Shown one piece after another: positions 8,533 through 43,085 of a stretch of 64,000 nucleotides of DNA; position 1 is the stretch's first letter; each line of letters begins with the position of its first letter. The translations under genes and the position numbers were made by a program. The notes below the pieces were generated by a model. The model worked only from the letters and a program-made list of their open reading frames with translations, had not been told where the DNA came from and did no database searches. The DNA is from Geminocystis sp. NIES-3709 (GTDB lineage Bacteria > Cyanobacteriota > Cyanobacteriia > Cyanobacteriales > Cyanobacteriaceae), in NCBI RefSeq assembly GCF_001548115.1, contig NZ_AP014821.1, positions 1,054,001-1,118,000 on the forward strand. The letters are read 5' to 3'.

Positions 8533-8626
8533 TATAGCGTTTTTTATAATTATGAGGTAGATTTTTTTATTGCCTCTTGCCTTTCGACGACAATCTTTGT
8601 ACCTCACCAAAACGGGAATTGCTATA
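8533..8626. mobile_element. MITE of the TATAGC...GCTATA family, 94 bp
   Basis: The left end reads TATAGCGTTTTTTATAATTA then TGAGGTA. The reverse complement of the right end reads TATAGCAATTCCCGTTTTGG then TGAGGTA. The termini are imperfect inverted repeats sharing TATAGC and TGAGGTAC-like blocks with the copy at 41857-41962. With TA taken as target duplication the element proper is 8535-8624. It carries no ORF. It sits in the 309-bp spacer between the S1 gene and the secreted protein; nothing else was recognised in that spacer. Confidence 0.65.
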
Positions 8627-39512: not shown

Positions 39513-40863
39513 CGGTACTTAGACAAAAATTATGCCCAAATAACCCCTAAACTAGCTTTATATAAACTAAATACTTCCACATTGTCTTTTAACCATTGAA
39601 AAAAGCGAAAAGACACAGCATTACGAAACGCTTCCAATGCCTCAGCAAAAGTATTTAACGGTTTATTCCCCCATTGTCTTCTTAAACCTCCTGTCAAACG
39701 ATGCCATTGAATAAAAGTGTAGGCACAAAATACCAAGATAAAATGTCTCATTAAACTTCTTTTATTTCTCACTTGGTATTGTGATAACCCTAACCATCCC
39801 TTGATTTCACGGTAAAATACTTCTATCCAATTTCTTTGTGTATAAGTTTCTACTATCCAATTTCCACACACTTTTTCTCCTATTTCATTAGTCATTAAAT
39901 AATCAATATCTGTGGAATTTTCAAAAGTATCTGCATTCATGACGATAGCTACAGTTTTTATTCCCGACAAAGCTGATAATTCAATATTTATCGTTGCTAC
40001 CCAAAGAGTTTTTTCTCGATTTTTTCCTATTCTTATTTTTTCAAAACTATCTTGGGGTAATGATTTTGCTATTTCAGCTATGGTTTTTTCAGACTCGATA
40101 AAATCTTGTTTTACCAATTTTACTAATCTATTTTTAGCAATAATTCCTATATATTTTAAATTCTTTTTTTCTAGTTTGCCTAATAAATTAGTATTGTTTC
40201 CATAACCACCATCCATTAAAATTATTTGGGGACAATAATTTCGATTTAAACATTTTTCAATTAAATTAAAGGCAATGTCTGGTTTTTTCTGAAATTGTGG
40301 AGCGTCTTTTCCTTCAGGGAAATTTTCGGCTTTTTCATATAATTCAACGTCTAAAGGAAAACTTCTCACACCATCATAAATGTGAGTAGTGACTATAACA
40401 TTACCATTATCAGTTTTGCCAATTTCACCAATATATTGTCTTCCCACACAGTCAGTAAAGTTTCCACTTTTACGATGACCTGAATCGTCTATAATTAAGG
40501 AGAAACATCGACTAATTTTTGTTTGACGACAGGATGCAATAATTTCTAATCTTTTATCATTTACCTCATCATAATTCCAAGTGGACTCTGTTAAGAAATG
40601 GTGTAATTTATGATAAGTAATATCAAGATTATTATGGGCAATTTGAGTTATATTTTTTCTTTGAGAATCTCCTAATAAACCGCCCAAATAATTTCTAAAC
40701 TCTCGTTTTTGTGCCTTTGTTTTTAAGACTGGGTCTATTTTTTCACACCAGCGATTGAAACATGGGGGCATTGATGAAGAAGTAATTTCTTTCATTTTGA
40801 CCTAAAAGCAATATGATGTAAAAATTATAGCTTAATTGTTGTTATTGTTTTGTCTAAGTACCG
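39513..40863 (-). mobile_element. IS701-family insertion sequence, copy 2 (1351 bp)
   Basis: Same length, same CGGTACTTAGACAAAA ends and identical transposase as copy 1, but in the opposite orientation. TTAA borders are at 39509-39512 and 40864-40867. It interrupts a small ORF between pfkA and a membrane-protein pseudogene. The two copies form an inverted pair about 20.9 kb apart. Confidence 0.95.
39530..40795 (-). CDS. IS701-family DDE transposase, copy 2
   Basis: The 421-residue protein is identical to the transposase at 17355-18620, with the same putative catalytic residues D103, D195 and E325. The frame is intact with an ATG start, so it is potentially active. Confidence 0.95.
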   Translation of the reverse strand: MKEITSSSMPPCFNRWCEKIDPVLKTKAQKREFRNYLGGLLGDSQRKNITQIAHNNLDITYHKLHHFLTESTWNYDEVNDKRLEIIASCRQTKISRCFSLIIDDSGHRKSGNFTDCVGRQYIGEIGKTDNGNVIVTTHIYDGVRSFPLDVELYEKAENFPEGKDAPQFQKKPDIAFNLIEKCLNRNYCPQIILMDGGYGNNTNLLGKLEKKNLKYIGIIAKNRLVKLVKQDFIESEKTIAEIAKSLPQDSFEKIRIGKNREKTLWVATINIELSALSGIKTVAIVMNADTFENSTDIDYLMTNEIGEKVCGNWIVETYTQRNWIEVFYREIKGWLGLSQYQVRNKRSLMRHFILVFCAYTFIQWHRLTGGLRRQWGNKPLNTFAEALEAFRNAVSFRFFQWLKDNVEVFSLYKASLGVIWA

Positions 40864-41050
40864 TTAAAAATATCTTAACTTCTGTTGGAATTAGACTAAA
40901 GTTGTCTTCTGTTATTAATTGTCCTTTTTGATTGAGAATTTCTCTAATTTTTGTCGCTTCCATTTTGATTATTTCTAAATCAGTTAGGTAATAATTTTTA
41001 TAAAACAATTAGATTATCGATTAGTCAATAATAAAATTTCTGTATAAATC

Positions 41051-41572
41051 TTATTCTCCCCATGGTGAAACTATATCACATTTTATTTTAACGTTTTGCA
41101 TAATTTTTTCAAAATCAATATTTATACGACTATCTATCCTTTTTTGAATTAAATGCTTCAGTAAATCTTGACAATTTTTTATTGCTTCTTCTTTACTCTT
41201 ATCAAAAGCCATAATATAATCATTAGTACTAATTGTATCTATGAATATAATTTTAGATCCTACTTCTATTTTTAATTGTTCTTGAATCCAAAGTAAGCTC
41301 ATAAAAAGTGGTTCTTCATTTATTTCATAATCTATATATATTTTATTTTGTCGAAAAACTTTTCTAATATATTTTAACTTATTAAATAAATCATCTCCCA
41401 AATTTTTCTTTAAAATATAAAACTTTCCATAATCAAAAAGTGATTTAAGTGATGTTATATCTTGATACACTAAATTTGTATAATCTCTAATAAATTCTTT
41501 TTCAGCATCTTGAAAATTTTTACTTAAATATTTAATCGATAATTTATAAACAACTAAATATCCAAAAAGCAT
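41051..41572 (-). CDS. 3' fragment of the split membrane protein gene
   Basis: Read alone this gives 173 residues from an ATG that lies inside a predicted membrane helix (VKIVHVITMLFGYLVVYKLS), an implausible natural start. The frame continues upstream to 41856 without any ATG, GTG or TTG. I therefore regard it as the C-terminal part of the 410-residue protein. It has charged helical sequence and no recognised domain. Confidence 0.6.
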   Translation of the reverse strand: MLFGYLVVYKLSIKYLSKNFQDAEKEFIRDYTNLVYQDITSLKSLFDYGKFYILKKNLGDDLFNKLKYIRKVFRQNKIYIDYEINEEPLFMSLLWIQEQLKIEVGSKIIFIDTISTNDYIMAFDKSKEEAIKNCQDLLKHLIQKRIDSRINIDFEKIMQNVKIKCDIVSPWGE

Positions 41573-41856
41573 CGTTATAACATGAACAATTTTAACAATA
41601 ATAAAAGTTCGGTGATGAGGCTGGTGATATATGGTTATAGATTCTTCGTCGTCTATTAATATTTCTTGTTCTGGTTTATCTTGATTAACCTCAATTAATA
41701 GTTTTTCTAAATAACTTAAATATTCCTGAAACTCAACTGAATATGTAGAAATAAAATCTATTTCTTGTTCATTATAAATTCCAATTCTATTAAAAGCAGT
41801 CTGATAATATTTATCATCTATTAATCTATTTTTATATATCTCTATATAATTTTGAA

Positions 41857-41962
41857 TATAGCAAACCTCAAACTAATGAGATACATTTCTAGCCTCCTAA
41901 ATCCCTAGAATTGGAGGACTTAAATTTTAAATTTGTACCTTGTAATTATGAGAAATGCTATA
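41857..41962. mobile_element. MITE of the TATAGC...GCTATA family with TA duplication
   Basis: Ends read TATAGCAAACCTCAAACTAA on the plus strand and TATAGCATTTCTCATAATTA on the minus strand, imperfect inverted repeats sharing TATAGCA, CTCA and G-TAC blocks. An internal hairpin pairs CCTCC with GGAGG (41893-41917). TA is the natural target duplication: excising TAGC...GCTA plus one TA repairs the host reading frame. A TA target is typical of IS630/Tc1-mariner-type transposases, so this is probably mobilised by such an element elsewhere in the genome. Confidence 0.75.
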
Positions 41963-42387
41963 TCTTTTTCTTTATAAGATGTTAAGTAACTATTAATAAA
42001 AGCTAATGAGCGAAGTTGTGAGTTTATCGCATTAATGAATAAAATTGAGATTTCTCTTTTTTCTTTATTATTTGCTAAGAATCTTAATCCTATATTTCCT
42101 ATAAAAATACCAGTAGCTGTTGCTAATATTGTAAAAATAGGTATGCTAAAAACATCTTTATATTCTGATGCAAAATTTTTTAAGTTATTAAATCCAGAAG
42201 TAAACATAATCTGAAATAAAAAACCTGAAATAAGAAAAAAGAAACAAGAAAAAATTATTCCTTTAGGTTTTTGTTCTAACAATAAATAAGAAAAAATTAT
42301 TCTTTGTAGTTTTTGTTTCAGTAAAAAATAACCTAATATTCCCCCCGCAATAATTAAGCCGATAATAGCGGGAATAATTTCTGACAT
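41920..42387 (-). CDS. 5' fragment of the split membrane protein gene
   Basis: A 155-residue reading frame with three membrane segments (about 4-24, 44-64, 82-103). Its native sequence ends at about residue 142; the final AFLIITRYKFKI is read from the MITE. It has the original ATG at 42387. If translated it would give a truncated membrane protein. Confidence 0.6.
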   Translation of the reverse strand: MSEIIPAIIGLIIAGGILGYFLLKQKLQRIIFSYLLLEQKPKGIIFSCFFFLISGFLFQIMFTSGFNNLKNFASEYKDVFSIPIFTILATATGIFIGNIGLRFLANNKEKREISILFINAINSQLRSLAFINSYLTSYKEKDIAFLIITRYKFKI

Positions 42388-42458
42388 AAAAGATAAATTG
42401 ATAATATTAAATGAAACTGATTGAAAAACATATAATTAACAAGAGTTATTCTCTTAAT

Positions 42459-43085
42459 CTATTCATTATCAATTCTTAATTGCTCTTTCCATCTTTTGAG
42501 AGGAATACAATCTATATTTAATTGATCTAAAGTACGAGCAATGACAAAATCTACTAGATCTTCGATCGATTGGGGTTTATGATACCATGCGGGGATTGCG
42601 GGAACAATTTTTGCTCCGGCTTCTGCTAAATTAGTTAAATTTCTGAGATGAATTAAACTAAAAGGGGTTTCTCTCGGTACTATTACTAAAGGTTTTCCTT
42701 CTTTAAGTTGTACATCTGCGGCTCTTTCTAGTAAATCGGTACTTAAGCCATGACTAATTTTTGCGACAGTACTCATACTGCATGGTATTACGATCATTCC
42801 AAGAGTGCGAAATGAGCCACTAGCAATACTTGCTCCCACATCTCCCCAACGATGACAAATTAATTTTCCTTTCGTTGGTATTTGTAAATACGATCGCCAG
42901 AATTTTTCTTGTACTTCTGGATCTTGAGGTACTTTTATATTATCTTCTTCTTGCCAAACCATATAACTGGCTTTTGAAGCTACCACATTAACGGTATATT
43001 CAGCTTCTAAGAGATATTTAAGAGTCCTGACGGCGTAAATCATCCCTGATGCACCACTGATACCGATAATTATTGATTTACTCAT
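42459..43085 (-). CDS. ubiX: Flavin prenyltransferase
   Basis: Makes prenylated FMN, the cofactor of UbiD-type decarboxylases, used in prenylquinone synthesis. The 208-residue protein begins with the flavin-binding IIIGISGASGMIYAVRTL, has the CSMSTVAKISHGLSTDLLERAADVQLKEGKPLVIVPRETPFS active-site region and the terminal AWYHKPQSIEDLVDFVIARTLDQL. All are standard for UbiX/Pad1. Start is ATG. It lies about 60 bp downstream of the HEAT-repeat gene in the same direction. Confidence 0.95.
   Translation of the reverse strand: MSKSIIIGISGASGMIYAVRTLKYLLEAEYTVNVVASKASYMVWQEEDNIKVPQDPEVQEKFWRSYLQIPTKGKLICHRWGDVGASIASGSFRTLGMIVIPCSMSTVAKISHGLSTDLLERAADVQLKEGKPLVIVPRETPFSLIHLRNLTNLAEAGAKIVPAIPAWYHKPQSIEDLVDFVIARTLDQLNIDCIPLKRWKEQLRIDNE

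Follow-up and report, generated by a model that had tools for sequence, protein, structure and literature searches.

A TA-flanked MITE within a split accessory membrane-protein gene of the cyanobacterium Geminocystis sp. NIES-3709

The split gene and the element within it

Two consecutive minus-strand reading frames, of 155 residues (42387-41920) and 173 residues (41572-41051), are listed in this part of the window, by which we mean the whole 64,000-nucleotide stretch of Geminocystis DNA analyzed here. An earlier note, made from the sequence alone, had described both frames, and both are present as it gave them. Between their intact parts lies a 102-bp element (41859-41960, given for the plus strand) with TAGC...GCTA borders and IS630-type ends. 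The element sits inside a minus-strand gene, where it closes the 5′ part with an in-frame stop. It is flanked by TA on one side at 41961-41962 and on the other at 41857-41858; one of these two copies is the original target. As delimited by a repeat finder, together with the TA and one flanking base, its terminal arms span 41856-41885 (left) and 41934-41963 (right), and they correspond to the ends of sibling copies. The arms are imperfect and match at 21 of 30 positions. Random arm pairs with the same spacing, drawn from the 38-46 kb region, gave a mean of 8.4 matches (sd 2.6), and 21 was reached in 11 of 50,000 draws, a count in which some draws should be the element itself. No open reading frame of at least 60 amino acids is listed within the 102 bp. 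Folding of the element as single-stranded DNA is unremarkable (z-score of -1.84; 9 of 200 shuffles fold at least as well), and a search of the region 40800-42500 against Rfam, with E values up to 1, returned no structured-RNA match.

The 5′ part of the split gene (41963-42387, minus strand) holds about 141 native codons and three predicted membrane helices. Read by eye, the last 13 or so residues of the 155-residue fragment are encoded wholly or partly by the element and the duplicated TA. The 3′ part (41051-41858, minus strand) is open from the edge of the element to its stop codon, and its first ATG is at 41572. Upstream of this ATG the frame is open for 95 codons to the element edge, or 100 when counted into the element; the figure of 106 codons given previously was too high. 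The open stretch was retained in none of 20,000 first-order Markov randomizations. Removal of 104 bp, namely the element and one TA, joins KEKD to IQNYIEIYKNR and yields the 410-codon frame that had been predicted. A hydropathy scan of the joined protein predicts four membrane helices, three of them N-terminal and the fourth midway along the chain. The ATG of the second fragment corresponds to residue 238 and falls within this fourth predicted helix (residues 227-245), in agreement with the earlier note. Neither half of the gene contains any other stop or frameshift.

We also considered a 4-base TATA duplication instead of TA. This alternative was rejected: it needs the removal of 102 bp, and the four bases left behind stop the frame at codon 148. 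It is also contradicted by the length of the gap in the alignment with a homologue, described below.

About 250 bp past the stop codon of the split gene there is an IS701-family transposase gene (39530-40795; NCBIfam NF033540, 1.2e-83). The roughly 58 bases immediately upstream of this transposase gene are repeated at many places in the genome.

Uninterrupted homologues and the distribution of the gene

The joined protein was compared with 149 genomes and found a match in four of them, its own genome included. The nearest homologue is encoded by G014, a metagenome-assembled genome of the same family that is 63% complete (contig PXEJ01000187.1). It is an uninterrupted protein of 416 amino acids, 63.0% identical to the joined protein over 395 aligned residues; the 5′ part of the split gene aligns with its N-terminal part, and the 95-codon open stretch that precedes the second ATG aligns with homologous protein as well. 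When the two DNA sequences are aligned, a single gap falls at the element and spans exactly 104 columns, and, compared without gaps, 85 of 100 bases are identical before the junction and 91 of 100 after it. This gap, with TA on both sides of the element, agrees with the borders and the 2-bp target site proposed from the frames. At the position that matches the target site, G014 has TG, not TA. The other two genomes, G143 and G104, match the joined protein in its N-terminal part only, through proteins of 319 and 306 amino acids, respectively.

A wider sample comprised 386 genomes of the phylum and was queried with a two-sequence alignment. Matches were found in eight genomes: the genome of the window itself, G261, G404, G257, G227, G104, G423, and G351, with G104 belonging to both samples. 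The frames of the more distant G261, G404, G257, and G227 are uninterrupted and 31-38% identical (those of G257 and G227 begin at TTG as listed), while the matches of G104 and G423 in this sample cover the N-terminal part only. G404 and G351 each have one more weak partial match elsewhere. A search of contigs with the joined protein alone gave no match; the two-sequence alignment then found PXEJ01000187.1. The earlier note had proposed a search for an uninterrupted homologue of the reconstructed protein, and five genomes proved to have one that spans the junction. The homologue in G351 (L098, about 1089-2312) is broken too, no more than a few residues from the corresponding position. Judged by eye, a short tandem duplication seems to be the cause, and further stops lie within the second part of its homologous frame.

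Substitution rates between the window and G014 were estimated for the whole gene (dN of 0.23 and dS of 0.42 by NG86; 0.21 and 0.86 by YN00), and these values appear compatible with past constraint. For the N-terminal part, dN and dS were 0.19 and 0.64 by NG86, and YN00 gave no value. For the C-terminal part they were 0.25 and 0.32 by NG86 and 0.23 and 0.66 by YN00; given an NG86 dN of 0.25 against a dS of 0.32, constraint on this part is not clearly shown by that method.

No usable family assignment emerged for the product of the gene. Neither the joined protein (best match Frag1, E value of 0.18) nor three homologues (best match DUF2813, E value of 0.0054, for the 319-residue G143 protein) reached the cutoff for a Pfam family, and the three homologues also reached that of no NCBIfam family. 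A role in anti-phage defence was considered and found no support: the PADLOC families gave zero matches both for the three homologues and for a seven-member homologue set. Matches to PHROGs were weak and scattered (best E value of 0.0024), any one family being matched by at most two of the seven members. The protein family had no match among solved structures, and the split gene had none among plasmids. An AlphaFold2 model of the G014 homologue with the two window fragments was of low confidence (mean pLDDT of 40.6) and was not used.

The gene is absent from all four other genomes of the genus, and thus no allelic empty site was seen; nor was an empty allele of the window site found in the data searched. 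The uninterrupted homologues belong to other species, and the nearest, that of G014, lies in another neighbourhood and is not an allele of the window locus. The two genes that lie upstream of the split gene in the window (HEAT-repeat-like and ubiX-like, named from their translations) are also present in G005, with other genes adjoining; in G004, the ubiX-like gene, likewise named from its translation, has other flanking genes. No conserved neighbourhood of the split gene was therefore found in the places examined in these two genomes. The G014 homologue lies between a partial transposase gene and toxin-antitoxin-like frames (L013:3-596 and L013:2916-3853, named from translations), surroundings that suggest an accessory island. 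Since matches occur in few genomes and in none of the four others of the genus, the split gene is a rare accessory gene, broken in two of the genomes seen, that of the window and G351.

The element family and a resident insertion sequence

The 106-bp stretch formed by the element and both TAs has an identical second copy at C1:2478913-2479018. On one side of it is a gene and on the other an IS701-type transposase gene that differs little from that of the window, and no ATG-started frame of at least 60 codons runs over it. Past the TA, similarity between the two sites continues for 2 bases on one side and for 7, with a mismatch and within a T-rich run, on the other. Because similarity ends just past the TA, the two copies reflect independent insertions and not a larger duplication. 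The flanks of the sister copy were also compared with the other four genomes of the genus; there the main match broke off near where the upstream gene ends (query positions 461-465 of 1261), short of the insertion point.

Eleven matches to the element were found in its own genome, the window copy included. Nine were assigned by alignment to one subfamily: four have perfect TATAGC...GCTATA borders, three have decayed borders, and two are truncated or diverged at one end. Besides its identical copy, the window element thus has seven diverged relatives. Of the remaining two matches, one comes from a related subfamily, of 96 bp, and the other is an insertion-sequence end. Scans with the end patterns, allowing at most 3 mismatches, gave 26 and 47 matches, compared with 1 and 0 for reversed control patterns. 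At least one inward-facing pair of ends was present in 19 of 20 fetched regions, and the other region held the single end of a truncated copy. These pairs begin with TATAGC or a near variant and are mostly 93-114 bp apart, the few longer pairings in the scan being nested elements or chance. The window itself carries a second element, of a related subfamily, at 8533-8626 (94 bp with both TAs and with TATAGC ends).

The position of the copies relative to genes was assessed by a crude overlap test, confined to the fetched regions and to ATG-started frames of at least 60 codons, so that GTG and TTG starts were ignored and the two truncated subfamily members and the unfetched end matches were left out. 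By this test, 23 of 24 other element copies overlap no such frame, and in the one that does, the frame begins inside the element. The window copy is the one clear gene disruption in this test.

The genome also contains an IS630-family insertion sequence of 1035 bp, both TAs included, which encloses two overlapping frames. Its ends read TATAGC(A/G)TTT...GAGGTAC, with TA borders, and its transposase matches IS630 in NCBIfam (4e-30) and DDE_3 (1.3e-30) and HTH_Tnp_IS630 (1.5e-5) in Pfam. The overlapping frames over which the transposase is split, of 138 and 179 amino acids (L057:1088-2040), are arranged as if for a programmed frameshift. There are five full-length copies at 100% rounded identity, together with fragments. 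A copy at L073:4389-6516 (G000:C1:2803888-2806015) is broken by other transposase-like sequence, an instance of nested elements. Compared by eye with the ends of the window element, those of the insertion sequence agree at 23 of 28 positions on the right and 19 of 28 on the left; the element interior, also by eye, has no resemblance beyond the terminal repeats to the first 60 bases of either insertion-sequence end. Judged by its IS630-like ends and TA borders, the MITE is a non-autonomous member of the IS630/Tc1-mariner superfamily. The resident insertion sequence is probably the source of its transposase, although its ends match the element only partly, which makes it a plausible source and not a proven one.

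Among known systems, Nezha is named as an active cyanobacterial MITE in a title cited by PMC10969869. ISY100 (ISTcSa) of Synechocystis sp. PCC 6803 has a TA target duplication, 24-bp imperfect terminal inverted repeats, and a DDE-type transposase, as described in PMC2170065. Like ISY100 and the IS630/Tc1/mariner superfamily, the window element has a TA duplication and short imperfect inverted ends, and its host is a cyanobacterium. Unlike ISY100, it is only 102 bp long and without a transposase, and its ends are like those of another insertion sequence, the resident one. In Anabaena sp. 90, 147 complete or partial MITEs were reported, 15 of them in disrupted ORFs (PMC3542288). They too are short, occur in multiple copies, carry terminal inverted repeats, and turn the genes they split into pseudogenes. 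The authors, however, typed them as having inverted repeats unlike those of resident insertion sequences, whereas the ends of the window element do resemble those of the resident IS630 family. Inactivation of microcystin clusters by MITEs, cited in a review (PMC10969869), is likewise a natural loss of a cyanobacterial gene to a non-autonomous element, but the gene in the window is a rare accessory one. That MITEs split genes in cyanobacteria is well established, and the window insertion is ordinary in kind.

Consequence and fate of the insertion

We are confident that a 102-bp non-autonomous MITE of the IS630/Tc1-mariner type inserted at a TA, duplicated it, and split an intact accessory membrane-protein gene of about 410 codons. 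That a MITE with a TA duplication splits a membrane-protein gene was the central proposal of the earlier note, and the TA borders, the multiple copies, the IS630-like ends, and the uninterrupted homologues all bear it out. In the mechanism we propose, a non-autonomous element of the IS630/Tc1 type would have been inserted by cut and paste at a TA, mobilized in trans by the transposase of the resident IS630-family insertion sequence. The insertion duplicated the TA, shifted the frame, and brought in a stop inside the element. It was probably recent, and the split gene is presumably no longer functional.

One rival reading takes the frames for two naturally separate genes that flank an ordinary intergenic repeat and can be joined only by coincidence, which would account for each having its own ATG. 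Yet the junction lies within a single uninterrupted frame in five genomes, the stretch before the second ATG is homologous to protein, and that ATG falls inside a predicted membrane helix. Since uninterrupted homologues span the junction, we reject this explanation as almost certainly wrong. The gene might instead be split but not inactivated, its halves being made as separate polypeptides that assemble, or its ribosomes shifting frame or reinitiating. Both halves are indeed free of other lesions, but a recent insertion explains this equally well, and the first in-frame ATG after the element comes only 95 codons later, within the helix; we consider such an arrangement very unlikely.

A reversible switch is also conceivable, in which the element excises and reinserts and so turns the membrane protein on and off in a fraction of the population or of the chromosome copies within a cell. 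The identical sister copy and the five essentially identical full-length insertion-sequence copies suggest that the transposase may be active. Against this, when a vector was cut in vitro by the ISY100 transposase, religated, and recovered in Escherichia coli, the junction was TATATA (PMC2170065). Because TA also forms both ends of the window element, next to the duplicated TA, an equivalent excision here would also leave TATATA, and this junction, modelled at the window site, stops the frame at codon 152. The claim that precise excision repairs the gene therefore holds as a reconstruction of the ancestral gene, by arithmetic, but transposase-mediated excision would not be expected to yield it, since an ISY100-like TATATA is out of frame. 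Clean reversion by the transposase would not be expected; to revert, the gene would have to recombine with a chromosome copy that lacks the element or undergo a rare deletion of exactly the inserted bases. As the data searched also yielded no empty allele, a switch of this kind seems highly improbable. We give similarly little credence to a live polymorphism in a polyploid cell, in which empty functional alleles and split alleles would coexist and the element would slowly switch the dosage of the membrane protein.

Overall, insertion of the MITE into an intact gene is the reading we prefer, and its consequence is most likely the simple loss of a dispensable gene. In this case, the borders of the element, the duplication of its target, and the ancestral form of the gene were predicted by frame arithmetic on the raw sequence, and homologues, as independent evidence, agreed. 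The case also defines, in this cyanobacterial genome, a family of short elements with a probable autonomous partner, and is otherwise a matter of routine accessory-gene decay.
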